Of a stretch of DNA of 64,000 nucleotides, positions 42,004 through 59,655 are shown in pieces. The position numbers and the translations under genes were made by a program. The notes beneath the pieces were generated by a model that saw only the letters and a program-made list of their open reading frames with translations, had not been told where the DNA came from and did no database searches. The DNA is from Peptococcaceae bacterium CEB3 (GTDB lineage: Bacteria > Bacillota > Desulfitobacteriia > Desulfitobacteriales > Desulfitobacteriaceae), in assembly GCA_001029295.1 (NCBI GenBank), contig LDXJ01000059.1, positions 62,001 through 126,000 on the forward strand. Direction: 5' to 3'. The stretch's first letter is position 1; each line of letters opens with the position of its first letter.

Positions 42004-44100
42004 TTAATACTGCTTGGTATGAACTTTTAACAGTTTACTTCCATCCGGAGAAAGCTCAAGCCCTCTTCTACCACGCTTAACCACAACTAGTTTTTTCCCC
42101 TTTAGTTCATTAATGATTCTCCTAACTATACCCTCTGGAATACCGCTTCTTTGTGCTAGGGACCGGCGACCGACTGATATGCCTGCCTGGTTTGCCGCCG
42201 CTATCTGCATAGCGATTTGCAAATAATAGCTGGGAGACTCTACACTGCAGTCAGGCCCAAGCTCTCTGAAGTTTTCAGTTTGAACAGGACGCAAAGGATT
42301 TGGTTCTGTGGTTACCGTTAACTTAGTCAGGCCCAGGCCGTTCCCGAAAGCCTTTAGGTCTTCCGGCAATATTTCTATTTTCGGGGGATGGTCGGGGTAA
42401 ATGTTTACCAGGTACTCTACCACGTTCTGCAGTTCCCGAATGTTGCCGGGCCAGTCGTATGCCATTAAGTAGTCCATTATCCAGCGAAAATAATCGTCCG
42501 CGCTAAGTTTTAGTTTGCCGCCCAAATATTTGTCGTAGAAGTACCTGGCTAGTGTAATAATGTCTTGTTTGCGCTCCCGCAAGGGGGGGATCCAGAGCGG
42601 CAAAACGTTAAGCCGGTAGTAAAGATCTTGGCGAAATAGTCCTTGGTTAATTAAATCTTTCAGGTTTTTATTGGTTGCGACGATAACCCTAACATCAACG
42701 GGAATTACCCGCGAACTACCAATACGACGGATTTGTTTTTCTTGGAGCACCCGCAACAATTTGACTTGAAAGGCTGACGGCGCATCTCCAATTTCATCCA
42801 AAAAGATGGTGCCGGTATGGGCTTGCTGAAATAGTCCTGACATGCCGCCCTTTTTTGCTCCCGTAAAGGCACCTTCCTCGTAGCCAAAAAGTTCGCTTTC
42901 TAAAAGGCTTTCACTTAAAGCGGCAAAATTAACCGCTACAAAGGGTTTATTTCCCCTGGCGGAGGCATTGTGAATACTTTGAGCAAATAGTTCCTTGCCT
43001 GTTCCGCTTTCTCCCTGAATTAAAATAGGGGAATCGGAACGGGCCAGTTTTTTGGCCAGTTGTTTAGTGGTTGTAAGAATGGAACTGTCACCTAGGAGTT
43101 GGTTGAAGGTGTAACGGGTATAGCCGTGGGACATGAGAGCGTGGCGGCGATGTTCTTCCTCCAGGCGTTGGATCACCGTAACATCTTGAAGTGTAAACAC
43201 CTTACCCCCGATTTCCTCATCGGTCGAAATAGGTGAACTGTTAACTATTAAATCCCGCCCTTTAATTCTGGCAAAGCTTTCCCTGTTTGCATCCCGCAGC
43301 AGGGTCTGCAAATCTGCATCTAGTGTTTTGTCGTCCAGTTGCTTACCGATCAAGTTGGTCTTCTGGTAGCCCAATAGTTCCATTGCTACGGAATTAAATA
43401 CGGTAATCTGTTCTTCTTCATTTAAAGCTATGATTCCGTCTCGTACGGTATTTATAATCGTTGCCAACTGGTTTTTCATCAGCTTGTTGAGTAAAGCCAT
43501 ATTCTTGTTCCTTTTAATTAATTCGATAATACCACGGACATATCGAGCGGAGAGCAGATTGGCCGTTTCGCTTGGGAGCTTCAAGCCTTTAACGACGTCT
43601 ACCAAAGTAATGAAATCAAGGTTTCTGCACTTAATATCAATTACGGTATCTGCACAAGGAGGTACTAACTGGGGTTCACCCGGAGTGATAGCGAGGTGGA
43701 GTTTAGGGTAGTCTTGCATTTCGGGGGCACAAGGAAAGTAATCAATATGATTCATGCCGATGGCCTTTAAGAGAGCTATGGTATCCTCTGCGGCCGATAG
43801 GCAGTTATTGACTAAAAGAGCACGGGTACCAATTGGTAGGCTTAATAAGCTATCAATTCCCAGATAGTTAATGGAGCGCAGGGCCACAACTCTTGGACAT
43901 GTAGGCTTGAAGTATTGCTTCGCCAATTCTAGCACGAACGGACTGGTTACTACGATGAGGTCCCCACCGATATAGGGTTGTATTTTGTCCTCGGTGCGGT
44001 AGGTTTCTAATTGTACCCAGTCACTTAGGAGTTCGTCCAACTGTTGATAAACAGTATCGCAGGTATTCTTGCCCTTGGCTACGACAGTTAAAGTTTTCAC
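42004..44100 (-). CDS. Sigma-54-dependent activator with PrpR-like sensor and winged-helix end
   Basis: About 698 residues from GTG 44100 (GAGGAG 7 bases upstream). Residues 1-195 resemble the PrpR N-terminal sensor. A PAS domain follows (about 210-315; DGIIALNEEEQITVFNSVA). The AAA+ domain spans about 335-570 with Walker A GESGTGKE, the sigma-54-contact loop GAFTGA, and IFLDEIGD. The C-terminus is unusual: instead of a Fis-type helix-turn-helix it has GISVGRRSLAQRSGIPEGIV and LKGKKLVVVKRGRRGLELSP, a winged-helix pattern. It is divergent from the peptide operon, whose sigma-54 promoter lies at 44285. Confidence 0.9.
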   Translation of the reverse strand: MKTLTVVAKGKNTCDTVYQQLDELLSDWVQLETYRTEDKIQPYIGGDLIVVTSPFVLELAKQYFKPTCPRVVALRSINYLGIDSLLSLPIGTRALLVNNCLSAAEDTIALLKAIGMNHIDYFPCAPEMQDYPKLHLAITPGEPQLVPPCADTVIDIKCRNLDFITLVDVVKGLKLPSETANLLSARYVRGIIELIKRNKNMALLNKLMKNQLATIINTVRDGIIALNEEEQITVFNSVAMELLGYQKTNLIGKQLDDKTLDADLQTLLRDANRESFARIKGRDLIVNSSPISTDEEIGGKVFTLQDVTVIQRLEEEHRRHALMSHGYTRYTFNQLLGDSSILTTTKQLAKKLARSDSPILIQGESGTGKELFAQSIHNASARGNKPFVAVNFAALSESLLESELFGYEEGAFTGAKKGGMSGLFQQAHTGTIFLDEIGDAPSAFQVKLLRVLQEKQIRRIGSSRVIPVDVRVIVATNKNLKDLINQGLFRQDLYYRLNVLPLWIPPLRERKQDIITLARYFYDKYLGGKLKLSADDYFRWIMDYLMAYDWPGNIRELQNVVEYLVNIYPDHPPKIEILPEDLKAFGNGLGLTKLTVTTEPNPLRPVQTENFRELGPDCSVESPSYYLQIAMQIAAANQAGISVGRRSLAQRSGIPEGIVRRIINELKGKKLVVVKRGRRGLELSPDGSKLLKVHTKQY

Positions 44101-44284
44101 TTTACCACTCCTCAAATAGCTTTAGAAATTGCGAAAGTGCTTTTCCTCAAATTAGAATAAGTAAACAAGTTAAGATAAAAGAAAAGGGATAATGGGAGCG
44201 AATAGGGATGTAAGCGGGTTAAAGGGCGGGTTCTTCGAATGGGTAAAAAGCGGTAAATTCAGACAAAGACGGGCTCAGTTGTAC

Positions 44285-44300
44285 TGGCACAGATATTGCA
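44285..44300 (+). promoter_or_regulatory. Consensus sigma-54 promoter of the peptide operon
   Basis: TGGCACAGATATTGCA has GG and GC 10 bases apart and the full TGGCAC/TTGCA consensus. It lies 45 bases before the binding-protein ATG and 185 bases from the divergent activator's start. The intervening AT-rich region has room for activator sites but no clear palindrome. Confidence 0.88.
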
Positions 44301-44344: not shown

Positions 44345-46024
44345 ATGAGCAAAATCCTAAAACCTCTGATTAGCGGTTTGACAGTGTTTGTCTTAGTTGG
44401 TGCCCTTCTGGCCGGTTGTGGCCAAGGTACTACTACTGGCAACACAACTGGGGCTGCCGCGCCAGACTCTCCTCAAAGGGGAGGCGTCTTTATCAACTGG
44501 ATGAAAGATGACCCTCGTCAGCTAGACCCTGTGCACGCTTGGGACGTGTCTTCTTATGATATTCTAGAGACCCTTATGGACGGTCTCCTGAGGTGGGATA
44601 AAGCGGGGAAAATTGTACCCGACCTAGCAACAGAGATGCCTCAAGTCAGTTCCAATGGTTTGACTTATACTTTCCACTTGCGTCAAGGCGTGAAATTTTC
44701 AAATGGAGACCCCTTTACAGCGGACGACGTTGTTTTTACGTTTAACCGGTTATTAGCTAAAAAAACCGCCAGTGAAGGTGCTACCCTATATTCCATGATC
44801 AAAGGATTTAATCGAATGCAGTCTGGTAAAATTACAGAGCTTCCAGGCGTGGTTAAGGTTGATGACTACACCGTTAAATTTCTTCTCAACGCTCCTTCCC
44901 GCCTTTTCCTTGACGTTATTGCCATGCCCTATGCGTTTATTATGCCAAAAAACTACACCACTCATCTGGCTAAATCCTCAGATTTCTCGGCTAACCCGGT
45001 TGGAACAGGTCCCTTCAAATTCGCCGGCTGGACTAAGGGACAGGAAATTAAGGTCGTGCGCAATAACCACTATTTTCTTAAAGACGCCAACGGTCGACAG
45101 TTGCCTTATTTAGACGGAGTGACGTGGAAGATAGGTTATGGTGAATCTGTTGCGTATCTCAATTTTAAGCACTTGACGCAAGACTTTTCCAGTATTCCCT
45201 CGGCAGATTTTATCAATATAATGAATGATCCAAAAATGAGCAAAGACGTCGTCTCACTCGTTTCGAATAATTTTTTCTACTTAGGGGCAAATAACAGGGT
45301 TGCTCCCTTTAACAACACACAAGTTCGCCAAGCCTTGGAATACGCAATTGACAAGAATGCGCTGATTAAGTTAATGAACAACCGGGCTACGCCTGCTTGG
45401 GGGATCTTACCACCAAACATGCCTGGGTACAAGCCCAATCCGTCCGGCTATAAATATGACCCCAATAAGGCTAAACAACTTTTGGCTTCTGCCGGCTATC
45501 CAAACGGCTTGCCCGGGGAATATACCCTTACTTATATTCAAACTGCACAATATAGTACATTGGTTACTAATCTCCAGTCCCAACTTGCCAATATCGGCAT
45601 TAAGGTGAAACCGCAAGGTTTGCCCGGACCGCAATTTACAAACATCGTAACTACTGGTAAGGAGCAGTTGATGTTAGGAGACTGGTTCCAGGATTATCCG
45701 GACCCCAATGACTTCCTTAATATCCTTTTTAATTCAAATCAGATTCCAAATAATAACTGTGTTCAGTATAGCAATAAAACTGTTGACAAGGAACTTAATA
45801 AGTTGGCTGGGGAACCGGATCTCAACAAAGCTATACCTGGTTACCACGCGGTAGAGAAACAAATATTGGATGATGCTGCGGTTGTTCCGCTATATCACGA
45901 AAAGTTCTATTACTTGGTGCAACCCTGGGTACACAACGCACAGTTGCACACCGTTTACCCGAAATTTTATTATTGGACCATGTGGATTGATCAAAAAGCC
46001 GAAAAAGTTGCCAAAGGCCAGTAG
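44345..46024 (+). CDS. Oligopeptide ABC transporter substrate-binding lipoprotein
   Basis: 559 residues. The signal peptide ends in a lipobox (LLAGC, Cys near residue 26). The SBP family 5 (DppA/OppA) core follows: GVFINWMKDDPRQLDPVHAW, YTFHLRQGVKFSNGDPFTAD DVVFTF in order, and VRQALEYAIDKNAL. It binds peptides or related compounds outside the membrane. No permease or ATPase genes are nearby, so it must use components encoded elsewhere or act as an accessory binder. GGAGGAAAGAC precedes ATG 44345. Confidence 0.9.
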   Translation: MSKILKPLISGLTVFVLVGALLAGCGQGTTTGNTTGAAAPDSPQRGGVFINWMKDDPRQLDPVHAWDVSSYDILETLMDGLLRWDKAGKIVPDLATEMPQVSSNGLTYTFHLRQGVKFSNGDPFTADDVVFTFNRLLAKKTASEGATLYSMIKGFNRMQSGKITELPGVVKVDDYTVKFLLNAPSRLFLDVIAMPYAFIMPKNYTTHLAKSSDFSANPVGTGPFKFAGWTKGQEIKVVRNNHYFLKDANGRQLPYLDGVTWKIGYGESVAYLNFKHLTQDFSSIPSADFINIMNDPKMSKDVVSLVSNNFFYLGANNRVAPFNNTQVRQALEYAIDKNALIKLMNNRATPAWGILPPNMPGYKPNPSGYKYDPNKAKQLLASAGYPNGLPGEYTLTYIQTAQYSTLVTNLQSQLANIGIKVKPQGLPGPQFTNIVTTGKEQLMLGDWFQDYPDPNDFLNILFNSNQIPNNNCVQYSNKTVDKELNKLAGEPDLNKAIPGYHAVEKQILDDAAVVPLYHEKFYYLVQPWVHNAQLHTVYPKFYYWTMWIDQKAEKVAKGQ

Positions 46025-46135: not shown

Positions 46136-46843
46136 ATGTATATGTACCGACTCCACAGCACCGAATTTTCAAAAGCAATGAAGTACATCAATACCGTTAT
46201 TTTACCGGTGGGTTCTACCGAAGTGCATGGTCCACACTGTGCCTTAGGCACGGATAATCTCATCCCCGAAGAGCTGGCTAGACGGTTAAATGAAGTGTTT
46301 GACAGAGAAGTCATGGTTGCGCCAACTATTCCTTACGGACATAGTTGGGGTCTATCCGAATTTCCAGGGACCATAAATATCGATTCGGATGTGTTTGGTC
46401 GTTATGTGACTGCCGTAGGAACAGAATTCCTGCGCGAGGGATTTCGACATATCGTGTTGATGAATGGTCACGGGGGCAACATTCCGGTACTGGCCGGGGT
46501 AACCGAAAGGTTGGCTGACTTGGGGGCAAAATGCCTGACTTTTAATTGGTGGACCGACTATCGTGAGGCAATTGGTCAAGTGGCTCCGGGCATCGGTCAT
46601 GCCGGTGAAGACGAAACCTCGCTCCTTTTGGCGATTGATGAAAGTCTTGCCGATGTGAAGCTGGCCGGTGATCACCGCATCGACATGCCTGGAAATGTCA
46701 AGTTTAAGGGTAGTTTTAGACTTGCCTATCCTCAAGCAATGTCCGGTTCCGGCAGCCAAGCCAGTGCAACAAAAGGTGAGACTCTGTATAACATCTTGGT
46801 AAAAACCATGGCGGACGAAATCCGCCGTCTCTGGACTTACTAG
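46136..46843 (+). CDS. Creatininase-family amidohydrolase
   Basis: 235 residues. Metal-ligand motifs of the family: VILPVGSTEVHGPHCALGTD near residue 22, MNGHGGN near 103, and IGHAGEDETSLLLA near 152. Relatives hydrolyse cyclic or linear amides (creatinine, formamide-type compounds, mycofactocin precursor peptide). Here it opens a run of peptidase genes, so a small peptide-derived amide or cyclic dipeptide-like substrate is conceivable. AAGGGGAGG precedes ATG 46136. Confidence 0.88.
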   Translation: MYMYRLHSTEFSKAMKYINTVILPVGSTEVHGPHCALGTDNLIPEELARRLNEVFDREVMVAPTIPYGHSWGLSEFPGTINIDSDVFGRYVTAVGTEFLREGFRHIVLMNGHGGNIPVLAGVTERLADLGAKCLTFNWWTDYREAIGQVAPGIGHAGEDETSLLLAIDESLADVKLAGDHRIDMPGNVKFKGSFRLAYPQAMSGSGSQASATKGETLYNILVKTMADEIRRLWTY

Positions 46844-46980: not shown

Positions 46981-48024
46981 ATGGAACACACAAGAGAATT
47001 CATACGTGTGCTTTCGGAAGGACACGGTGCCTCCGGCTATGAAGCCGGCTTGGCAAGGTTAATGGAGCGGCAATTTAGCCCTTTGGCGGACCGGGTATAT
47101 GCCGACAGATTTGGCAACTTTTATGCGGAGAAACTAGGGAGTCCAGGCAAACATACAGTAATGTTGGCAGCTCACATGGATGAGGTTGGCTTAATCGTTA
47201 CAAGAATCGACGATAGAGGTTTCATACGTTTTACAGATTTGATTGGGATAGATCCGCGGACCTTACTCGCGCAAGAGGTGGTAATCCATGGTAAACAGGA
47301 AGTGCTAGGTGTAATCGGTTCCATGCCCCCCCATCTAGTTCAGGTAACCCAGGCGGGTAAAGCCATAAAAATAGAGGACATGGGCATTGATGTGGGACTC
47401 TCAGTCGCCGAAATACGGGAAGTAGTAGAAGTAGGCGATACCATTACTTTAAAACGTCAACTGCAAGAATTGTTAAACGGGGTGGTAGCGGGTAAAGCAT
47501 TGGATGATAGGGCGGGGATCGCCGCTATGGCGGTTTGTCTGGAGGAGTTGGACCGAATGAAGTTTGGCCCTAAGGTCGTGGCTGTTGCCACGGCTCAAGA
47601 GGAGGTACATATGCGTGGCTCTGTGGTCAGCACCTTTGCCCTTGACCCCGAGATTGGCATAGCTATTGATGTGACTTTTGCTGCGGAAGCTAACAACAAA
47701 TTGAATATCGAACTGGGCAAGGGGCCTGCCATAGCCCTTGGTGCCAATATTCATCCTGCCATTTACCGGGGTCTGGTGGACAGTGCTCAAAGCGCTCGCC
47801 TATCCTATCAGTTACAACCTATTCCCGGACGGTCCGGTACAGATGCTTGGAGTATGCAAGTCAGTAGGGCGGGGATTCCTACGGGCCTTGTGTCTGTTCC
47901 ATTACGTTATATGCATACCTGTGTCGAGACCGTGTCGGTGGAAGACGTGGTATCTACTGGCAAGCTGTTAGCCTACTTTATTGCCACTTTGCCGGAGGAT
48001 CTGGAGGGTTTCCTATGCTTTTGA
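46981..48024 (+). CDS. M42-family metallo-aminopeptidase (first of three)
   Basis: 347 residues of the glutamyl-aminopeptidase/tetrahedral (TET) M42 family. MLAAHMDEVGLIV gives a metal His/Asp, GKALDDRAGIAAM the bridging Asp, ATAQEEVHMRGSV the catalytic Glu pair, and the C-terminal VPLRYMHTCVETV the last His. It removes N-terminal residues from peptides in large cytoplasmic assemblies. Its end overlaps the next M42 gene by 10 bases. The ribosome site is unclear: the only purine-rich stretch lies about 25 bases before ATG 46981. Confidence 0.9.
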   Translation: MEHTREFIRVLSEGHGASGYEAGLARLMERQFSPLADRVYADRFGNFYAEKLGSPGKHTVMLAAHMDEVGLIVTRIDDRGFIRFTDLIGIDPRTLLAQEVVIHGKQEVLGVIGSMPPHLVQVTQAGKAIKIEDMGIDVGLSVAEIREVVEVGDTITLKRQLQELLNGVVAGKALDDRAGIAAMAVCLEELDRMKFGPKVVAVATAQEEVHMRGSVVSTFALDPEIGIAIDVTFAAEANNKLNIELGKGPAIALGANIHPAIYRGLVDSAQSARLSYQLQPIPGRSGTDAWSMQVSRAGIPTGLVSVPLRYMHTCVETVSVEDVVSTGKLLAYFIATLPEDLEGFLCF

Positions 48025-49028
48025 AAACCTTAAGCGAACTCAATGGAACATCGGGTGCTGAAAAGACGATTAGAGAATATTTGCGCCAGGTACTTGAACC
48101 CTATGCCAGCGAGATGGTGATCGATAGGATGGGGAATCTGATTGTGCATAAAGTAGGGAGAAAACCTGGTCCCCTTGTGATGGTAGCGGCCCATATGGAT
48201 GAGGTAGCGCTCATGGTAACGGAAGTGACTGCTGAGGGTTTCCTGAAATTCGTACCTGTGGGAGGGGTGGATCCGAGGATTCTTCCTGCTAAGGTTGTCA
48301 AGGTCGGTGTAGAAGGTATTAAAGGTGTTATCGGCATCAAAGCCTTTCACTTGACAAAGCCTGTGGAAAGAGAGAAGGCACCAGAGGCAGACGAACTCTG
48401 CATCGATGTTGGTGCTAAGTCCCTGGAGCAAGCGGCAGCTTTGGTTCAACCTGGCGACTATGCTTATTTCGACACCAAATTTGAGTTTCTTGGTAAGGAA
48501 TATTTTAAAGGGAAAGCATTGGATGACCGAATCGGCTGTGCCGTTTTGACGAAAATCCTGCAAAGGGACTACGACTGCCCGCTAGTTGGGGTGTTTACAG
48601 TTCAGGAAGAGGTTGGAATGCGTGGCGCTACCGTGGCTGCTTACCGCTTAGAGCCGGCCTTGGCTATTGTCCTCGAAGGTACTGTTTCCGGGGATATGCC
48701 GGATGCCGGGGAACGGGATTGGGTCACGACACCCGGCCAAGGCCCGGCCTGCTCTCTTATGGATAACGCCACTCTCTATCCACCTCGCCTGATAAAAAAG
48801 GTCGTGGAGGTTGCTAACAGCAAAGGAATACCTTTACAGTTCCGGCGCAGCAAAAACGGGGGCAATGACGCTGGTTCAATTCATCTTACCAAGGGAGGAG
48901 TTCCCACCATAGCTATCAGTGTACCTTGTCGTTATATTCATTCCTGGTTTTCGCTTGCGGCAAAATCGGATTACGAGGCGACAATTGAGTTGGTAGATAA
49001 TCTTGTTAGAGAAATAAGGGGGGCTTAG
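48015..49028 (+). CDS. M42-family metallo-aminopeptidase (second of three)
   Basis: 337 residues, paralogue of its neighbours. VAAHMDEVALMV, GKALDDRIGCAVL, FTVQEEVGMRGAT, VLEGTVSGDMP and VPCRYIHSW carry the metal and catalytic residues. Start ATG 48015 has GGAGGG upstream within the preceding gene, so translation is coupled. Three non-identical paralogues could form mixed assemblies or divide substrates. Confidence 0.9.
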   Translation: MLLKTLSELNGTSGAEKTIREYLRQVLEPYASEMVIDRMGNLIVHKVGRKPGPLVMVAAHMDEVALMVTEVTAEGFLKFVPVGGVDPRILPAKVVKVGVEGIKGVIGIKAFHLTKPVEREKAPEADELCIDVGAKSLEQAAALVQPGDYAYFDTKFEFLGKEYFKGKALDDRIGCAVLTKILQRDYDCPLVGVFTVQEEVGMRGATVAAYRLEPALAIVLEGTVSGDMPDAGERDWVTTPGQGPACSLMDNATLYPPRLIKKVVEVANSKGIPLQFRRSKNGGNDAGSIHLTKGGVPTIAISVPCRYIHSWFSLAAKSDYEATIELVDNLVREIRGA

Positions 49029-49032
49029 TTTG

Positions 49033-50052
49033 ATGACCAGTCAAGAGTTTGTCCCAGACGTATTCAATTATACACTGCTCAACCGTTTGTGTCAGGCTTA
49101 CGGTCCTTCTGGCTCTGAGGAAGAGGTGGCCGCAATCATCAAAGCAGAAGTAGTACCCTACTGCGATAAACTGGTGTCGGATAGTATGGGCAACCTAATT
49201 GCCAGCAGAAACGGTAGCGGCAAAAAGGTCATGGTCGCGGCCCACATGGATGAAATAGCCTTGATGGTGACCTATATCGATGAAAGTGGTTTTTTGCGTT
49301 TTATCGTTATAGGGGAAATTGAAGCCCGTTACCTTCCTTACCGCCGAGTTATACTGCAAAATGGGAAGATGGGAACCATCGGCCTAGAACGGCTTGAAAA
49401 GTCAACAGAGATTGATCTTAGCAAATTATACATCGACATTGGCGCTTCTTCACGGGCCGAGGCGGAACAGGTAGTGGGAATTGGTGATGCGCTTATCCTT
49501 GAAGGTGCCTATGTGGAAGTGGGCAAACGCATTATGTCCAAGGCCTTGGATGGTCGTATTGGCTGTTTTGTGGCTATAGAAGCTCTTAAGCGAACCAAGT
49601 CCACGAACGAGCTGGCTTTTGCCTTTACTGTCCAGGAAGAGGTGGCGATGCGGGGAGCCCGAGTGGCTGCGTATGCGATTTCACCGGACCTGGCCTTGGT
49701 AGTTGACGTGACGAGAACAGGCGATACCCCGGGTGCAGCACGGATGGAGGTAAGCCTAGGAGCAGGTGTGGGTATCAAGGCTTTTGACCATTCCTTGGTA
49801 ACACCGCCGAATATCAAACGATGGATGTCGGCAACGGCCGATCGATACAGCATTCCTTGTCAGCTGGAAGTCCTGGAGCAGGGAGGGACTGACGCAGGTG
49901 TAATTCAATTGACTAAAGGGGGTATTCCTTCTGGGGTACTTTCTATTCCTGCTCGGCAGGTGCATACTCCAACCGAAGTAGTGGATAAGCAAGATATGGA
50001 GGCGGCTGTAACACTTTTGACCAAGCTACTTGAGGAAAATGAAGACCTATAA
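49033..50052 (+). CDS. M42-family metallo-aminopeptidase (third of three)
   Basis: About 339 residues. VAAHMDEIALMV, SKALDGRIGCFVA, FTVQEEVAMRGAR, VVDVTRTGDTPG and IPARQVHTPTE are seen. One of the paired acidic residues in the ALDDR motif is Gly here (ALDGR); the first, bridging Asp is kept. AAGGGGGG lies about 10 bases before ATG 49033, with an in-frame TTG just upstream. The isoaspartyl dipeptidase follows after 28 bases. Confidence 0.88.
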   Translation: MTSQEFVPDVFNYTLLNRLCQAYGPSGSEEEVAAIIKAEVVPYCDKLVSDSMGNLIASRNGSGKKVMVAAHMDEIALMVTYIDESGFLRFIVIGEIEARYLPYRRVILQNGKMGTIGLERLEKSTEIDLSKLYIDIGASSRAEAEQVVGIGDALILEGAYVEVGKRIMSKALDGRIGCFVAIEALKRTKSTNELAFAFTVQEEVAMRGARVAAYAISPDLALVVDVTRTGDTPGAARMEVSLGAGVGIKAFDHSLVTPPNIKRWMSATADRYSIPCQLEVLEQGGTDAGVIQLTKGGIPSGVLSIPARQVHTPTEVVDKQDMEAAVTLLTKLLEENEDL

Positions 50053-50080: not shown

Positions 50081-51262
50081 GTGAAACCACTGTTTACTAT
50101 TTTGAAAGGCGGCAGACGTTATACCCCAGACGATGCAGGTGTAGGAGATGTCGTTTTGGCGGCAGGGGTTATCACCAGCTTAGCCGACAATGTATTGCCA
50201 GACCCCAGTTATGGAGAAGTTGAAGTGGTTGACGTGAAAGACAAATATGTAGTGCCAGGTTTCATCGACCAACATGTCCATTTGTTAGGCGGTGGCGGAG
50301 AAGGCGGTTACGCTACCCGTACCCCAGAAGTCATGCTGAGCCACTTGACCAGGGCCGGTATTACTACGGTTGTTGGCTGCCTTGGTACTGATGGTACCAC
50401 CCGGCATGTCGCGTCCCTCTTGGCCAAGGCTCGGGCTCTTGAGCTGGAGGGAATATCCACATACATCTATACAGGGGCTTATGAAGTGCCCGCTCCCACT
50501 ATTACTGAAAGCGTGCGTGATGACTTAATCATTATAGACAAGGTCATCGGATGTGGCGAGGTGGCGATAGCGGATCATCGTTCTGCCCAACCTAGCATCG
50601 AAGATATTCGAAAACTAGCAGCTCAGAGTAGGGTCGGCGGACTATTAAGTAACAAGGCAGGGGTCTTGCATCTACATGTGGGAAATAACCCCCAAGGTAT
50701 TGGCATGTTATTGGAATTAATTGCGGAACAAGAAATACCTGTAACTCAATTTACGCCAACCCATATGAATCGCAATCAGCAGCTCTTAGACCAAGGAATC
50801 CGCTTCGCCGCTCTCGGCGGGATGATTGACTTTACCACCAGTGTGAATCTTTCGGAAAGTAATGTGGCAAGGGTTAAAGCAGCGAAAGCGGTTTCTTATT
50901 GCCTAGAGCAGGGGGTGGATTTGTCTCATATAACCATGAGCTCGGACGGCAATGGCAGTCTCCCTGTTTTTGATGAACAGGGCGATACTATAGGCTTTAT
51001 GGTAGGGGAGCCAATGTCCCTATATCGCGAATGGCGAGACCTTGTCCTTGAAGAACAGTTGGAACTGTCCCAAAGCCTTAAAGTCATTACGGGAAACCCG
51101 TCCAGGACCCTTAAACTTTTTCCCAGAAAGGGCACCCTCAAGGTAGGAGCAGATGCAGACATTGTAGTACTTAATCAGGACCTAGAGATCGAGTATGTTT
51201 TTGCTAGGGGCTACTGCATGGTACGACAGGGCCAGGTTGTTGTTAAAGGAGTTTTTGAGTAG
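50081..51262 (+). CDS. iadA: Isoaspartyl (beta-aspartyl) dipeptidase
   Basis: 393 residues of the amidohydrolase superfamily. PGFIDQHVHLLGGGGEGGY holds the H-x-H metal pair, VLHLHVGN and QFTPTHMNRN further His ligands, and TMSSDGNGSLPVF the catalytic Asp. YTGAYEVPAPT is typical of IadA. GTG 50081 follows GGGAGGAAAATAA. It cleaves isoAsp-X dipeptides that arise from spontaneous isomerisation of Asp/Asn in ageing proteins. Behind three M42 aminopeptidases it completes a peptide-salvage operon. Confidence 0.92.
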   Translation: MKPLFTILKGGRRYTPDDAGVGDVVLAAGVITSLADNVLPDPSYGEVEVVDVKDKYVVPGFIDQHVHLLGGGGEGGYATRTPEVMLSHLTRAGITTVVGCLGTDGTTRHVASLLAKARALELEGISTYIYTGAYEVPAPTITESVRDDLIIIDKVIGCGEVAIADHRSAQPSIEDIRKLAAQSRVGGLLSNKAGVLHLHVGNNPQGIGMLLELIAEQEIPVTQFTPTHMNRNQQLLDQGIRFAALGGMIDFTTSVNLSESNVARVKAAKAVSYCLEQGVDLSHITMSSDGNGSLPVFDEQGDTIGFMVGEPMSLYREWRDLVLEEQLELSQSLKVITGNPSRTLKLFPRKGTLKVGADADIVVLNQDLEIEYVFARGYCMVRQGQVVVKGVFE

Positions 51263-51499
51263 ACAATACCCGGAAGAGCAATTTTCCCCAGGGACATGGT
51301 GCGATTGGAACTTCTTGCGCGTATGGGGATGAAACCAGAAGAATGGGGACCGGCACGGGTGTTCCTCTCGCTTTCGACAGTCCCTAGATACGACCTGTCG
51401 TGTATCTACACTTTTTAGCCCTTGCGGAGCAAAATATCCCATATTCTCGGGGGTTCCGGCAATTTGAGCGCTGAAAAAATACTCATTTGTTCTTTGGTT

Positions 51500-52925
51500 A
51501 AGTCTGTCCTCTGAAAGACCTTTCCATCAGCCGATTTCTACTCAATAAGATGAATGTTCTCGAGCTCGGAGCGCAGAGTAGCCCAAGTTTGTCGGGTCTC
51601 GACTTCGGCCAGACGCACCAGGAGCAAAGCCAGCCAGCACAACAGGACATGGGCACAGATCCGATCGTCTTTCCGGTGGTAAACAGGCCGCAGTTCGAGG
51701 GTCGTTTTGAGCGTGCGGAAAGCCCGCTGCAGAGTTGCTTGAAGCCCAGGGTGATATCCTCTACCGAGAGGGTGTCATCCGAGGTGTGGATGAGGTATTT
51801 TCCGTCCAGCCTTTCCGCGGCCTTCACTGCCTTCTCGTTAATCCTTAGGTTCCCTTTGGAGTCGATTTGCAAGTATCGCTTGTAGACGATATGACTGTAG
51901 AGAGCACAGTGGGCTTTAGTGTTGCGCTTCTCGGTCCAGTTTTTTCAGTTTCGCGAGTTTCTGCCTCAGCTTTTCCAGGTGCTTGGCGCGGGTGTGGGCA
52001 TCACGCTTGGCTTCCGCAGGGTTACGGACCAGAACATAGCGGATGCGGGCCTCTCCATGGCCGACAACCACTTCTTTCGCCTCCAGGTTTTCCTGAATCG
52101 CACGAAACCTTTCGGGATGCGAGGGGGCAGGGCCTCCTCGACCTCGGGTTTACCGGCCGTGAGGCGTTCCCCTGCAATGTAGTGACCTCCGGTCCTTTGC
52201 AAAATCCGCAAGTCCTCCTTGGAGGAAAAACCCCTGTCAATCACGCTCACGACCCCTCCCAACTTCCAGCCCGCCAGATCCCGCTTGACTTCGGGTATAA
52301 CCGACATGTCGGAGGTGTTGCCGAGCCAGACCCAGGAGCGAATCGGAATCCCGTCCCGAGTAACCGCCAAGCCTATCACGATTTGGGGCAGATCGCGCCG
52401 ACTGTCCTTCGAACGGCCCAGAGCTTTCAGGTCCTCCTCCTCTTCGTCCCACTTGTCCATTTCAAAGTAAGTGGACGTGGTATCGAAGAACAACAGATCG
52501 ACTTCCAGATGAAACAAGTCTGCTACGGCGTGAAATACCTCCCGCTCAACGTCCTCCTGGGGTTCCAAGAGGAAATCCATCGCCCGGCAGCAATGCTGAA
52601 CATCCACGTTCGGAAGGTCGGGAATGACAACCTTCTCGGGCACCCACTTCTCCAGTTTCAGCTTACTCGAAGGCGCCAAGGCTCGGTTGGCACCATCGCG
52701 AACAGAGTCCGCTCCATCTCCGTGCGATACTGACGTTCTTTCAACCGGCGCTCCAAAATGGTATCGATTCCGAGCCTGCGCCAAAGTTGATCCAGAAACC
52801 AGGTCCCGCCCAGCGGGCGACTGGAAAGGAACTCCAGTTTTGGGGCCTAGGCCGGAGAGAGCGGTTCACCGAGAAAGCGCCGAATACTGTGCTCAAGCCG
52901 ACGAAGGGCGTCATTTTAACCGTTC
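51500..52925 (-). mobile_element. IS1634-type transposase, frameshifted remnant
   Basis: Reading on the minus strand, pieces of one DDE transposase of the IS1634/IS4-like group follow each other in changing frames: LEFLSSRPLGGTWFLDQLWR, LEVDLLFFDTTSTYFEMDKW, then VSVIDRGFSSKEDLRILQ, and finally IDSKGNLRINEKAVKAAERL with GKYLIHTSDDTLSVEDI. Frameshifts lie near 52760, 51970 and 51720, with a stop near 52850. It is inactive. It separates the M42/IadA operon from the dead kamA gene. The gap 51263-51500 before it holds no gene. Confidence 0.75.
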
Positions 52926-53010: not shown

Positions 53011-53313
53011 ATGTTTGCGGAATGCACCATAGCAAGTTATTTTGCATGTGGTCGCAAAGATTTATATCAGCTGTTTTCTGGGCTACGGCAAAATTACTTG
53101 CGGTTAAAAATTAGCCTTTTAAGAGAAAGAATATCTCGCCGGGAATTAGGCAGTTCGGGGGGACTCTGGCTGTTCGGCTTAAAACCCATGAGGCCTTGTA
53201 ATTTAGATCCTGGAGGCTGTTACTATCTTGGCACATTTCTTGCATCATTAAACAACAACTTAAAGGACACAAAAGAAATAATATTACATGTGCTGGAGGA
53301 GGAGCCAGTATGA
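53011..53313 (+). CDS. Uncharacterised small ORF upstream of kamA remnant
   Basis: About 100 codons, ending NNNLKDTKEIILHVLEEEPV. Its stop overlaps the kamA start (ATGA), which suggests a real, possibly truncated, cistron of a former kam operon. Its front end adjoins the IS remnant. I recognise no family and no strong start. Confidence 0.3.
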   Translation: MFAECTIASYFACGRKDLYQLFSGLRQNYLRLKISLLRERISRRELGSSGGLWLFGLKPMRPCNLDPGGCYYLGTFLASLNNNLKDTKEIILHVLEEEPV

Positions 53314-54145: not shown

Positions 54146-55303
54146 ATGAAAGATAAAATTAAACAAGATATTTATGCAGTTTTCGAAGAATTAGTGAAAA
54201 TTAGCCGTTTTCTCTTCGAAAATCCGGAAATCGGGTACCAGGAATTTAAAGCCGCAGAAATTCTTGGGGAGAGTTTGAAAAAGCACGGGTTTAAAGTCGA
54301 GAAGGGTGTCTGTGCGATCCCCACCGCCTTTCGCGCCGTCTATGGCGGCAAAAAAGAGGGTCCGCGTGTGGCCTTTCTTTGTGAATACGACGCTCTGCCG
54401 GGCATCGGTCACGGGTGCGGCCATAACCTGATTGCCGCGATGGGCCTAGGGGCGGGGATCGGCTTGAGAGCGGTTATTGATGAACTGGGCGGGAGTATCG
54501 TGGTCATGGGCACGCCGGCGGAAGAGACCAGCGGGGCTAAGGTCAGCTTAGTTGAAGGGGGCTTCTTTGAGGATGTGGATTTAGCCATGATGGCTCATCC
54601 GGGTCCGAGTACGCAAGAAAGCGGCCCTTCCCTTGCGTTGAACGCCTTGCAGTTTGAATTCACTGGTAAGGCCGCTCATGCCGCTGAAGCTCCGGAAAAG
54701 GGGATCAATGCTCTTAATGCGGTTATTCAGTTGTTTAACGGAATCAATGCTCTGCGCCAGCATGTGCCTGGTGATGTGCGGATCCACGGAGTTATCACCG
54801 AGGGGGGGAAGGCTGCCAACATTGTCCCTGATTACACTACTGCTCAATTCTATATTCGGGCTGCTAAGAGGCAGCGACGGGATGAAGTAACGGAAAAAGT
54901 TGTCGCTTGCGCCCGTGGGGCCGCAATGATGACCGGGGTCAAGATGAAATTCAGCAACTTTGAAATTTCCTATGACGACTTAAAGACTAACTCGATCATG
55001 TCGGATTTATTCACTGTCAACTTGAAAGAATTGGGCGAAAAAGAAGTGCGCAAAGGGCAGCTCGTCGCGGCCTCCTTGGATATGGGGAATGTTAGCCAGG
55101 TGGTCCCGTCCATCCATCCCTGGATAGGTCTGGGGAATCTGGATTTGGTCTTGCATACCCAAGAGTTTGCTGATACTACCATCACCAAGCGGGGTGAGGA
55201 AGCCATATTTAAGGGTGCTTGCGCAATGGCTATGACGGCTTATGACATAATTGCTTCGAAGGAGATCATGGAACGAATTAAGAAGGAATTTACCAAAAAG
55301 TGA
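54146..55303 (+). CDS. M20-family metallopeptidase/amidohydrolase
   Basis: 385 residues. PRVAFLCEYDALPGIGHGCG gives the zinc region, VVMGTPAEETSGAK the catalytic Glu pair, and AAHAAEAPEKGINAL the dimerisation-domain His. The type resembles AbgB/aminoacylase-like amidohydrolases that split N-acyl or aminobenzoyl-glutamate-type amides. AAGGGGGGG sits directly before ATG 54146. It begins a three-enzyme run with a D-aminoacylase-like enzyme and a racemase-like enzyme, so removal of acyl groups from L- or D-amino acids fits. Confidence 0.9.
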   Translation: MKDKIKQDIYAVFEELVKISRFLFENPEIGYQEFKAAEILGESLKKHGFKVEKGVCAIPTAFRAVYGGKKEGPRVAFLCEYDALPGIGHGCGHNLIAAMGLGAGIGLRAVIDELGGSIVVMGTPAEETSGAKVSLVEGGFFEDVDLAMMAHPGPSTQESGPSLALNALQFEFTGKAAHAAEAPEKGINALNAVIQLFNGINALRQHVPGDVRIHGVITEGGKAANIVPDYTTAQFYIRAAKRQRRDEVTEKVVACARGAAMMTGVKMKFSNFEISYDDLKTNSIMSDLFTVNLKELGEKEVRKGQLVAASLDMGNVSQVVPSIHPWIGLGNLDLVLHTQEFADTTITKRGEEAIFKGACAMAMTAYDIIASKEIMERIKKEFTKK

Positions 55304-55330
55304 TAGCCGTAAAAGGGGGTTAAGACAAAG

Positions 55331-56698
55331 GTGTTTGAACTGGTCATTAAAAACGGCATGGTAGTGGATGCTCTGAATAAATTATTTTCCCCCTGCTGTA
55401 TCGGAATTTCCGGCGGGAAAATAGCAGCAATCAGTATTGAAGATATCAGGGGAGAGCAAGTTATTGACGCTGCGGGAATGGTGGTTTCTCCCGGATTTAT
55501 TGATATTCATATGCATGAGGATCCCCTCCGGGAAAAGAACGGGATGAAAGAAATAGAAGAAAATATTTTCAACAGCATGGCCTTGATGGGGGTCACCACC
55601 TGTGTCGGTGGCAATTGCGGCATGGGGATGCCGGATTTGGAAGGGTATTTAACCGCAATCGACAATTTTGGCTTGCCCGTCAACTTCGCCACTTTTCTTC
55701 CCTACACTACCTTACGAGAAAAAATTGGGGGAACTAACAATTATCTGGCCAATACCTCGGACGAAAACGAAAAACTGAAAGAATTGCTCCGTGCTGGCAT
55801 GGCGGCGGGCGCGGTCGGTCTTTCCTTTGGTTTGGAGTATATTCCTGGCTGTCCCACCAACGAATTGATCGAAATGGCCAAAGTGGTTGGCGAATTTCCC
55901 GGTAGACTCGTTGCCGCTCACTACCGTTCAGATGCGGGAGGGGGAATTGAATCGATCAAGGAACTATCCTACATCAGTTGGGTGGCGGATGTCCCAATGC
56001 AAATTTCCCATATTGGCAGTTGCACAGCTTTTGGAATGATGCGGAAAGGCTTGGAGACCGTGGACCAGGCCCGGAAACTTGGAATTGACATAATGGCTGA
56101 CTGCTACCCTTACGCGGCTTTTTGCACTTATATCGGGTCGGCGGTGTTTGATGAGGGTTGTTTTGCAAGATGGGGAACGGATTATAGCTCTATCGAACCG
56201 GCCGAAGGGAAATATAAGGGCAGTCCTTGTAGCAGAGAAACTTTTGAGTACCTTAGGGTTCGGGAACCCAATACCTTGGTCGTCGCCCATGTGCTAAATA
56301 AAGACGAGGTTCTGGAAGCACTTGCCCATCCCTTGGTGATGGTGGGCAGTGATGGATTGCTGAACGGGAGAAAGGGCCACCCACGGGCGAGCGGGGCTTT
56401 CCCCCGAGTTTTTGCCCATTATGTCCGGGAATTAAAAGGATTGTCCTTAATGGAGGCAATTCTCAAGATGACCCTTATGCCGGCGCAAAGGCTGGGCTTG
56501 AAAACCAAAGGCCAACTGACTCTGGGCAATGACGCGGACATTAGTATTTTTGATCCAGATAAGATTGTGGACAAGGCAACATATACGGATCCAGTTGCTC
56601 CGCCGGAGGGGATTGCCTACGTCCTTGTGAACGGGAAAATGGTAGTTGCAGACGGACAATTAACAGGGGTTAAACCGGGAAAGACGCTTCGTTTTTGA
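55331..56698 (+). CDS. N-acyl-D-amino-acid deacylase-like amidohydrolase
   Basis: 455 residues of the D-aminoacylase subgroup. SPGFIDIHMHED holds the metal His pair, GGNCGMGMPD the bridging Cys region typical of D-aminoacylases, AHYRSDAGGGIESI and ISHIGSC further His residues, and VGSDGLLNGRKGHPRASGAF the catalytic Asp. It would release D-amino acids from N-acyl derivatives. The GTG start at 55331 follows AAAGGGGG at about 12 bases. Its downstream neighbour is 39 bases away. Confidence 0.87.
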   Translation: MFELVIKNGMVVDALNKLFSPCCIGISGGKIAAISIEDIRGEQVIDAAGMVVSPGFIDIHMHEDPLREKNGMKEIEENIFNSMALMGVTTCVGGNCGMGMPDLEGYLTAIDNFGLPVNFATFLPYTTLREKIGGTNNYLANTSDENEKLKELLRAGMAAGAVGLSFGLEYIPGCPTNELIEMAKVVGEFPGRLVAAHYRSDAGGGIESIKELSYISWVADVPMQISHIGSCTAFGMMRKGLETVDQARKLGIDIMADCYPYAAFCTYIGSAVFDEGCFARWGTDYSSIEPAEGKYKGSPCSRETFEYLRVREPNTLVVAHVLNKDEVLEALAHPLVMVGSDGLLNGRKGHPRASGAFPRVFAHYVRELKGLSLMEAILKMTLMPAQRLGLKTKGQLTLGNDADISIFDPDKIVDKATYTDPVAPPEGIAYVLVNGKMVVADGQLTGVKPGKTLRF

Positions 56699-56737
56699 AG
56701 AGCAAAGAGGAAGCAGATCGCGGGAGGTGGTGTCGTT

Positions 56738-57802
56738 TTGGGCTACCCAAGATTGGAAATTGCGGAAAGTAAGATTAGACTGAATTGCGAGTATTTAACG
56801 AATTTCTGCAGCAGGCAAGGTATTGCAATAATGGGGATTACGAAAGGGGTTAGCGCCCTGCTTCCCGTGGTGAAGGCCATGTTGCGCGGAGGAATAGAGA
56901 AGCTTGGAGATTCCCGGATGAAGAATATCAGGGCACTGAAAGAAGCCGAGATCGGTGTGCCAGTCTATTTAATAAGAATTCCTATGCTTTCCGAGCTGGA
57001 AGAAGTAGTTTACTGGTCTGAGGGTAGTTTTAATTCCGAAGTTGATGTTATGCAAGCCCTCGCTCATAAGGCCAAACTGTATAACAAGACTCATAAGGTT
57101 ATCTTGTTGGTGGACGTTGGGGATTTGAGGGAGGGCATTCTGCCAGAGGATGTTTCTAAAACAGTGGGCCAAATCCTTGACTTCCCTGCTCTGGAGTTGG
57201 AGGGACTAGGCACTAATGTTGGCTGCTATGGGGGAGTTCTTCCAAGTCCGGAGAACATCAGGATCTTATTTGATTTAGCCCAGGAAATAGAGAAGAGGTA
57301 CGGGATAAGGCTGAAAACTCTGTCCGGCGGCAACACGGCTACTCTGAGTCTTCTGGAAAAAAGCAACCTGGGGCAGGGAATCAATCAACTTAGACTGGGG
57401 GAAGCAATTTTGTTGGGCACGGATGCGACGAATCACCGGGCTGTCCCTGGAACCTCCATGGATACCATGAGATTGAAAGCCGAGGTAATCGAAGTTAAGT
57501 GGAAACCGTCTTATCCCATAGGCAAAATAGGTCGGGATGCTTTTGGAAATATCCCGGTCATCGAAGATAGAGGGGAAATGAGGCGAGCGATCGTGGCACT
57601 GGGAAGACAGGATTGCCGCATTGAAGGACTTACTCCGGTGGATCAATCGATGGAGATTATTGGTGGAAGTAGTGATCACCTTCTTCTTGATGTCACCCGT
57701 TGTGCGGATATCGGCATCGGCTCTCTGGTCGAATTCAAGGTAACTTATGCGGCAATGCTTAGCCTTTCGACTTCCAGTTATGTGGAAAAGGCTATGGTCT
57801 AG
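56738..57802 (+). CDS. Alanine/ornithine racemase-family PLP enzyme
   Basis: 354 residues of the fold-type III PLP family related to ornithine racemase (Orr) and YhfX. IMGITKGVSALLPVV holds the PLP lysine at residue 36, and LSGGNTATLSLLE and INQLRLGEAILLG the phosphate-binding and C-terminal segments. It probably interconverts D- and L-forms of an amino acid such as ornithine, or otherwise acts on a D-amino acid. TTG 56738 is chosen because GGGAGGTGG lies 8 bases upstream. Confidence 0.85.
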   Translation: MGYPRLEIAESKIRLNCEYLTNFCSRQGIAIMGITKGVSALLPVVKAMLRGGIEKLGDSRMKNIRALKEAEIGVPVYLIRIPMLSELEEVVYWSEGSFNSEVDVMQALAHKAKLYNKTHKVILLVDVGDLREGILPEDVSKTVGQILDFPALELEGLGTNVGCYGGVLPSPENIRILFDLAQEIEKRYGIRLKTLSGGNTATLSLLEKSNLGQGINQLRLGEAILLGTDATNHRAVPGTSMDTMRLKAEVIEVKWKPSYPIGKIGRDAFGNIPVIEDRGEMRRAIVALGRQDCRIEGLTPVDQSMEIIGGSSDHLLLDVTRCADIGIGSLVEFKVTYAAMLSLSTSSYVEKAMV

Positions 57803-58233
57803 CGGTAACCCGAAAAGTTGTTAGACATCTTGTACTGGCCTTCGACAGCTTATAGGTACAGGAAGCGCCTTTAACCCGTCATGCCAGAAGGAATTGCGAA
57901 TCAGACATACGTCGGTGAGATACCCGGGTGGCTGAGGAAAGTCGTTCGCTAGGTTGCGAAGGTAACTGTATGGGTTAAGACTCTTTGTTGCTTAAGAACA
58001 AAAATGATTGAACAATACACAATATCGTCAAAGGACCGTTAACTGAAGACATTGAAACAGCTCACAACATCCCTGGAAAGCCTAGAATGAAGACAGTAGA
58101 AAATAACACCGTGGTTTCCTGAGGATGTCGATGTGTGATTTTGAAGGGAGAGGGGTGGAATATGGATGATACCGGTTAGGTAAGTGAAGCGGTTATGCCG
58201 GAAGAAAATTAAAGAAAGGGAGATGTTGGTAAA
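57803..58233. other. Gap between racemase-like gene and carrier
   Basis: About 430 bases with no supported gene on either strand; the 58039-58602 minus frame is a shadow of the carrier gene. No sigma-54 or LacI-type site is evident. A ribosome site (AAAGGGAG) marks the end of the gap. Confidence 0.5.
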
Positions 58234-59655
58234 ATGAGTGTACAATCTACTGAAAAGCCAGTTAAGCTGGGGAAAAATAAAAAAAGGAAGAGTATCAATA
58301 CTTTTGTACTGCTTTTCTGCGTGATGGTGGCTATGGCTATCCTGACCTACATTCTGCCTGCAGGACATTATGCAAGGCATGTGGTTAAAGGCCTGAACGT
58401 GGTCATACCTAACACATACAAAACAGTGGCCAGAACCCCCGTTGGTTTCTTGGGGCTGTTTTCCTCGATCCCCCAGGGTATGGAAGAAGCGGCACCGATT
58501 GCTTTTTACGTGATCATCATCGGTGGAATGATCAATGTCATGAACGCTACGGGAGCACTCAATGCGCTGCTTACTGTCACGGCCAGAAGGTTTTCCAAGC
58601 AAGGACTGTGGTTTATAGCCCTGCTTATGCTGTTGTTCTCCTTGGGCGGAAGCCTCCTAGGCATGGCTGAGGAGAGCTTAATGTATCTTCCGGTGGTCAT
58701 CCCTTTTGCGTTAGCTATGGGATATGATCTTTTTACAGGAGTGGCTATCGTTCTGCTAGGTATGGCCATAGGATTCACTACGGCCATCATGAACGCCTTT
58801 ACCATCGGTATCGCCCAGAGCGTCGCCCAACTGCCGCTATTTTCCGGTATTTGGCTCAGACTTATTTTGTACGTAATTGTTTACATCGCTGCCGTAGCTT
58901 TCGTCTATCGGCACGCTAAGAAGGTTAAGGAAAACCCTTCGCTGGGTATCTGGGGCGATCGAAGATATGAAAGTGTGGCGCAACTAGAGGGCGAAGATGT
59001 TAAGCTTGAGGTGCGGCACAAGTGGGTTTTATTATGCTTCGTGCTGGCTATTGCCACACTGGTCGTCGGCGTGATCAAATTCAATTTCAGTTTCGAACAA
59101 TATGGTGGTGTGTTTATTTTACTTTCGATTGTGATTGCTTTCATCGGACAAATGTCCACTGAAGACTACCTGAAGAACTTTATGCAAGGCTCGGCGAACA
59201 TCCTACCGGCTGCTCTGATCATCGGGCTTTCCAGGGGCGCCGTGGTTGTATTGACTAATGGAAACATTCTCGACACTATACTGTACCACGCGGCTACGGC
59301 TCTTGAAACTGTTCCATCCTCGCTCAGCGCAGCGGGTATGTTTTTATTTCAGGCGACATTGCACATCCTGGTTCCTTCAGGAAGTGGCCAGGCCATGCTG
59401 ACCATGCCCATCATGGTCCCCTTGGCAGATCTACTGCATGTGACCCGTCAAACGGCCTGCCTAATTTTTACACTTGCGGACGGCATTGGCAATACCATCT
59501 TGCCCACATCCGGATATTTCATGGCGGCTCTTAGCTTGTCAGGACTGGCTTATGGCGCATGGGCTAAGAAAACCTGGCATTTTATTGTAGGACAATACGT
59601 GGTTGCGATAATAGTTGTGGTACTGGCTAACATGGTACATTATGGGCCATTTTAA
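58234..59655 (+). CDS. YfcC-family membrane carrier
   Basis: 473 residues with about 11-12 helices. The start (KKRKSINTFVLLFCVMVAMA, ILTYILPAGHY) and the segment LVPSGSGQAMLTMPIMVPLA mark the YfcC/DcuC-related carriers linked to uptake of amino acids, peptides or dicarboxylates. Following the deacylases and the racemase-like enzyme, it is a good candidate importer for N-acylated or D-amino acids. No ribosome site problem: AAAGGGAGATG lies upstream of ATG 58234. Confidence 0.85.
   Translation: MSVQSTEKPVKLGKNKKRKSINTFVLLFCVMVAMAILTYILPAGHYARHVVKGLNVVIPNTYKTVARTPVGFLGLFSSIPQGMEEAAPIAFYVIIIGGMINVMNATGALNALLTVTARRFSKQGLWFIALLMLLFSLGGSLLGMAEESLMYLPVVIPFALAMGYDLFTGVAIVLLGMAIGFTTAIMNAFTIGIAQSVAQLPLFSGIWLRLILYVIVYIAAVAFVYRHAKKVKENPSLGIWGDRRYESVAQLEGEDVKLEVRHKWVLLCFVLAIATLVVGVIKFNFSFEQYGGVFILLSIVIAFIGQMSTEDYLKNFMQGSANILPAALIIGLSRGAVVVLTNGNILDTILYHAATALETVPSSLSAAGMFLFQATLHILVPSGSGQAMLTMPIMVPLADLLHVTRQTACLIFTLADGIGNTILPTSGYFMAALSLSGLAYGAWAKKTWHFIVGQYVVAIIVVVLANMVHYGPF

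Follow-up and report, generated by a model that had tools for sequence, protein, structure and literature searches.

Why does Peptococcaceae bacterium CEB3 carry three diverged M42 aminopeptidase genes in a row, and do their products work as three particles or as one? The genes, here called A, B and C, lie at positions 46981-50052 of the window, which is the whole stretch of 64,000 nucleotides that was analysed (contig LDXJ01000059.1, positions 62,001 to 126,000). The usual picture of an M42 particle is that of a homododecamer, and the first-pass annotation of this DNA had suggested that the three paralogues could form a single tetrahedral (TET) particle of mixed specificity. The more far-reaching of the readings put forward here, to which we give a probability of roughly 0.4, is that the trio is an obligate hetero-TET whose active sites are split, in which A and C would catalyse and B would supply a substrate-gripping loop histidine in trans. 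That the trio assembles into one mixed TET particle is given slightly better than even odds.

Three intact open reading frames (ORFs) on the same strand were confirmed, and all of them matched the M42 family PF05343 over the entire profile (1-292 of 292) with scores far above the cut-off of 23.2 bits. B and C share 33-35% identity with A. The metal-binding and catalytic residues of Pyrococcus horikoshii TET2 (PhTET2) are H323, H68, E213, E212, D235 and D182, the last of which bridges both zinc ions (PMC8993905; here and below, papers are cited for their available excerpts). According to the alignment, all six are present in window A, B and C, with either Asp or Glu at position 235. In line with the M42 fold, 21 PDB chains were matched in sequence by each of the three proteins, and the predicted model of window C reached a predicted local distance difference test score (pLDDT) of 93.2. 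The genes had also been described as overlapping, which is correct for A and B (10 nt). B stops at 49028 and C starts at 49033 (ATG, 339 aa, the more likely start) or at 49030 (TTG, 340 aa), so that B and C are separate in the window and an overlap of all three genes is ruled out.

The three-gene arrangement is not a product of chance, because the same order was seen again in distant phyla. Three M42 genes were found at 83 of 89 loci, 80 of which came from a genome collection searched with C (the best 80 of at least 552 relatives, a choice that favours trios) and 9 from the window and its own genome, with several loci overlapping. Over 159 loci, the order was ABC in 143, and the other 16 contained CAB (4), BC (4), C alone (5) or A alone (3), several of them being broken off at contig or locus ends. 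Locus and residue counts exclude overlapping loci (L001-L006, L010, L091-L098 and L199), ORFs shorter than 200 aa (150 aa in the 89-locus survey) and matches with an expect value (E) above 1e-20; identical domains were counted once, and the near-copies L049/L188 and L078/L085 remain. Trees were built without rows shorter than 280 residues. When 231 rows from Bacillota, Chloroflexota and Candidatus Edwardsiibacteriota were labelled by gene position, they formed three clades with 5 label changes against a minimum of 2; the only misfits between clade and position were L037 and L049, both of C-A-B order, and window A, B and C were each placed in the clade of their own gene position. Gene order thus matches the three clades across Bacillota and Chloroflexota, and so the trio is ancient and is inherited as a unit across both phyla.

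When the window genome was taken together with 20 relatives, 16 of these 21 carried a complete trio, and 51 of the 52 strong M42 matches (E<1e-60) lay inside such trios. Exactly three M42 matches were found in 64 of the 70 members of the G021 family, and when 299 genomes of the phylum were drawn evenly, 150 matched the C profile at E<=1e-60, among which exactly three matches was the commonest number (64/150). In the 147 complete trios, 126 A/B junctions were overlapping (median 10 nt; mostly 10 or 16 nt) and the median B/C junction was a 1-nt overlap, values for which start codons were guessed and which include four below -4000 from CAB loci. The proteins of Thermotoga maritima TM1048-TM1050 (chains 4p6y, 3isx, 2fvg and 1vho) are alike in that each window gene matched a different chain best. 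For window A, 1vho (which we take to be TM1048) was the top of three; B scored 245 bits with 2fvg (TM1049 by its PDB title), 192 with 4p6y and 162 with 1vho; and C scored 234/233 bits with 3isx/4p6y (TM1050, also TmPep1050), 194 with 2fvg and 132 with 1vho. Spread-out trios with intervening DNA were seen in the Chloroflexota loci L048, L053, L075, L089 and others, and two genomes of the Desulfosporosinus genus (G105 and G108) contained broken or frame-shifted trio genes, a trio decay that is under way.

Within this conserved set, B has lost its catalytic residues in one clade. Proteins were called degenerate when at least one of H68, D182, E212, E213, D235 (D/E) and H323 was lost; among the 457 distinct sequences of the first set, 0/150 A, 44/151 B and 1/156 C were of this kind. 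Forty-three of the 44 degenerate B proteins form one clade with a support of 99 in the Shimodaira-Hasegawa-like approximate likelihood-ratio test (SH-aLRT), from genomes of the family of G021, L056 and L069. The general-base Glu E212 is absent from all 43, and B is nevertheless an intact ORF beside intact A and C. The remaining case, L014_B, is isolated in Desulfosporosinus, and the sister clade of degenerate B (22 rows) has intact B. For nine pairs of close relatives within the degenerate clade, the ratio of non-synonymous to synonymous substitution rates (dN/dS) was 0.08-0.18 in B, compared with 0.02-0.13 in A and 0.06-0.18 in C; degenerate B is under purifying selection. The model of one degenerate B, L056_B (pLDDT 89.7), retrieved M42 chains at all of ranks 1-41 in a Foldseek search, with query template-modelling scores (TMq) of 0.81-0.93. 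In a phylum-wide set of 224 sequences, every A and B had kept all catalytic positions, and one C (L213, E213K) had lost one. Sequencing errors are possible in L014_B and L213_C, each of which is represented by one sequence. The sole strongly degenerate C was found at L189 (genome G078), where D182, E212, H68 and H323 are lost while A and B are intact; the related trio L187 has an intact C. The D235 position is Glu in 82/83 B proteins of the phylum-wide set and in 65/78 of the first 80-locus set, and also in Thermotoga 2fvg.

In PhTET2, the chamber loop binds or steers substrate, and its H123 is reported to come near the active site of the adjacent subunit. The histidine at this position was found in every B (234/234; 190/190 intact and 44/44 degenerate) and in 160 of 207 A. 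It was found in no C (0/240), whose loop is 2-9 residues shorter than the usual 33 of B, mostly 5-8 (156 C of the first set), with a His elsewhere in the shortened loop in 13 of 147. In the raw loop segments, A lacked the histidine in 36 of 44 trios with a degenerate B versus 10 of 103 with an intact B. Placed on a tree of 146 of the 147 complete trios, the A loop His was lost in 36 of the 43 genomes of the degenerate-B clade, and no sister-clade locus is among the A proteins without it. The ten losses beside intact B are all from Chloroflexota loci, apart from the degenerate-B clade, and keep the His of B.

Degenerate B has positions of at least 95% conservation at 10/16 sites in the loop versus 42/328 elsewhere. 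From the sister clade to the degenerate-B clade, the entropy of the B loop changed by -0.21 (p=2e-4 against the rest), that of the catalytic positions of B by +1.44 and that of its other positions by +0.45; the corresponding values in A were +1.00 (p=8e-6), 0.00 and -0.18. These p-values assume independent sites and concern a single clade; C showed no change. In an unbiased scan with a sliding block of 17 residues (326 blocks), no region had tightened more than the loop region in B or loosened more than it in A, with the top six blocks starting at 105-110 in both proteins and the loop itself at 109.

This reciprocal decay, in which B lost catalysis and tightened its loop and the loop of A decayed, would be best explained by a mixed TET particle. 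The three genes would then encode the orthologous subunits of an ancient M42 (TET) aminopeptidase trio, with the loop histidine of B probably lent in trans to the active sites of A and/or C; and if B lends its loop to a neighbour's active site, the lender and the recipient would have to share one particle. A 4:4:4 composition would fit the twelve positions, since 4 A + 4 B + 4 C would let every apex hold one of each, and the three kinds could be placed on three pairs of opposite tetrahedron edges. Alternatively, a loop that acts across the dimer axis would call for B-A or B-C heterodimers. The division of labour would have become complete in one bacterial family, with B as a pure loop donor (pseudoenzyme) and A as a loopless catalyst in a particle that still works.

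Trio conservation and reciprocal decay thus lend indirect weight to the mixed particle of the first-pass annotation. Several points speak against a mixed particle of the trio. The distance from the histidine to the active site varies from ~4 to >20 Å among structures of PhTET2 relatives, and the A loop His is still present in 7 of the 43 degenerate-B genomes. The reciprocal decay is essentially that of one clade, so its phylogenetic replication is low. The C loop is without His even beside intact B, which leaves the need for trans donation to C unproved. In some Chloroflexota loci, the trio genes lie hundreds to thousands of bases apart, and the gene order is changed in some Clostridia. Finally, TmPep1050, the Thermotoga member of C, was purified and active alone (PMC3511314), and C is thus able to function in the absence of A and B.

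The activity of TmPep1050 by itself, like that of CelM (PMC3511314), and the homododecamer as the classic M42 form (PMC8993905) would also suit three separate homododecamers that serve different classes of N-terminal residues and stand together only for co-regulation. We regard this as somewhat unlikely, because a catalytically lost B, which purifying selection has maintained in 43 genomes whose A and C are intact, would have no obvious use as an aminopeptidase of its own, and because the A loop decays in the very genomes with a degenerate B. Degenerate B could have taken a new job as a separate homomeric peptide-binding or regulatory protein, the loop loss in A being coincidental; such a role would agree with the substrate contacts of the PhTET2 loop and with the overall relaxation of B outside the loop (entropy 1.58 vs 1.12). 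It is very improbable, as the same loop would have to be hit by coincidence twice, independently in A and in B, and it leaves the kept gene order and overlap aside. Heteromers of two kinds (e.g. A with B) beside a separate C homododecamer like TmPep1050 are suggested by the reciprocal pattern itself, which lies between A and B with C unchanged, and by the fact that every C is without the loop His, yet TmPep1050 works alone (PMC3511314). This arrangement is unlikely as well, given that C is co-inherited with the other two and is their neighbour in 143 of 159 loci.

The first-pass annotation had further pointed to Gly in place of the second Asp of the ALDDR motif in the third gene, from which an altered metal site or role could follow. 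The replacement is real: window C has KALDGR, while window A and B and the C of a second trio in the same genome (see below) have KALDDR. Counted from the alignment to 1y0r, the first Asp of ALDDR is PhTET2 position 182 and the second is 183. The ligand is the first Asp (D182), which is kept, and the 183 position is not a ligand; the six metal or catalytic positions of C are intact, and removal of a metal ligand by ALDGR was therefore ruled out. The change is also rare in homologues, not common in ordinary enzymes. Position 183 is D in 170 and N in 37 of 207 intact A; D in 166, N in 21, and A, H and G in one each of 190 intact B; and D in 143, N in 89, A in 5 and G in only one, window C, of 238 intact C. 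Over all 681 proteins, Gly at 183 was found in six (window C, L128_B, L014_B, L166_B, L172_B and L189_C), although a one-residue deletion in the ALDDR of many degenerate B partly shifts the letters at this position. Four of the six (L014_B, L166_B, L172_B and L189_C) have also lost catalytic residues elsewhere, and L128_B is a close relative of a catalytically lost copy. Window C has further Gly to Ala changes in HMDEIG and in QEEVG. Of 52 columns conserved in C, 2 differ in window C, and 11 of 237 C proteins differ at more. ALDGR, which lies next to the metal-bridging Asp, is specific to this lineage and may weaken the window copy of C, since most Gly-183 proteins are degenerate or close to a degenerate copy. 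In the Desulfosporosinus genus, B has ALDHR in L129_B, ALDGR in L128_B and ALEGR with E213K in L014_B, and these apparently look like successive steps of metal-site loss.

Proteasome beta subunits combine paralogous active and inactive subunits in one compartment; their fold, chemistry and symmetry are different, and the comparison is an analogy only. Among M42 peptidases, P. horikoshii TET2 and TET3 are paralogues of different specificities that formed heterododecamers in vitro, with both at every apex and one apex type that mixes sites (PMC4220976). They differ from the trio in being two active paralogues, and neither a degenerate subunit nor a three-gene operon is mentioned in the available excerpts. 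In Bacillus subtilis cells, contact between another bacterial pair of M42 paralogues, YtoP and YsdC, was seen by cross-linking mass spectrometry with an AlphaFold-Multimer model (PMC10090944; see also 9a5r by its PDB title), again for two paralogues and not three. TM1048-TM1050 of T. maritima have three consecutive locus numbers and are listed as endoglucanases (PMC4517919), a cellulase or endoglucanase naming that is rejected on the basis of PMC3511314. Unlike the trio proposed here, these chains were studied as single proteins, with no mixed assembly or subunit roles reported in the excerpts available. Neither the fold nor the chemistry is new, and mixed TETs are known to be possible. The literature searched, which lay mostly outside subscription journals, held no report of an M42 operon of three genes, of a mixed trio or of a pseudoenzyme in this family, and no description of a conserved three-gene set with a loop-donor pseudoenzyme. 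If true, a three-subunit M42 particle with a loop-donating pseudoenzyme would add a novel architecture to the self-compartmentalising peptidases, and it would account for the cohesion of the three genes from Bacillota through to Chloroflexota and probably Thermotogota. It would also open the trans role of the TET loop histidine, which is unsettled, to a direct test, because in degenerate-B trios the only remaining loop His is usually on the non-catalytic subunit.

The window genome (G000, 5.3 Mb) contains a second complete trio at C64:426245-429164, with ~65-70% identity to the window copy (A 65%, C 68%, B 70%). In the trees, the window copy clusters with the second copy and an Acididesulfobacillus copy; in the B tree, it lies just outside the pair formed by these two. 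As the window copies cluster with the second trio, the trio was probably duplicated or acquired as one unit in this genome.

The window trio is likely to be part of a sigma-54-controlled peptide-use operon (Table 1), in which it would strip imported peptides down to amino acids. A sigma-54 type site ends 44 bp before the first operon gene and is one of only two exact -24/-12 matches in the 64-kb window. When up to 2 mismatches were allowed, 44 matches were found against 33.5 expected, so that the site counts only through its exact match and its place.

Table 1. Features of the trio operon and its surroundings (positions in the window)
Feature	Positions	Strand	Basis or detail
Sigma-54-dependent activator, divergent; PAS and Sigma54_activat domains; PrdR-like but below cut-off	42004-44115	-	domain searches
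Perfect sigma-54 type -24/-12 match, TGGCAC-N5-TTGCA	44285-44300	+	consensus scan of window
Family 5 (peptide-type) ABC solute-binding protein	44345-46024	+	domain searches
Creatininase-family amidohydrolase	46136-46843	+	domain searches
M42 subunit A, loop-His type, clade A	46981-48024	+	347 aa; PF05343 269 bits; nearest Thermotoga chain 1vho
A loop histidine codon, PPH motif (PhTET2 H123 position)	47332-47334	+	sequence, alignments
A/B overlap, 10 nt	48015-48024	+	sequence
M42 subunit B, loop-His type, clade B	48015-49028	+	337 aa; PF05343 309 bits; nearest Thermotoga chain 2fvg
B loop histidine codon, KAFHL	48348-48350	+	sequence, alignments
M42 subunit C, without loop His, clade C	49033-50052	+	339 aa; PF05343 278 bits; nearest 3isx/4p6y
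C codons Asp173-Gly174 (ALDGR)	49549-49554	+	Asp = D182 position, Gly = D183 position
Beta-aspartyl (isoaspartyl) dipeptidase	50081-51262	+	equivalog TIGR01975, 517 bits vs cut-off 331

Just downstream of the trio operon, frame-broken remnants that look like a transposase were seen at 51498-52784, and the minus-strand frame at 51966-52784 had no match in a Pfam search. The second exact sigma-54-type -24/-12 match, at 53229-53244, lies upstream of ORFs at 54146-59655 whose products by eye resemble an M20-type amidohydrolase, a D-aminoacylase, an amino-acid racemase and a YfcC-like transporter. Together they could possibly constitute a second regulated unit for peptides or D-amino acids.

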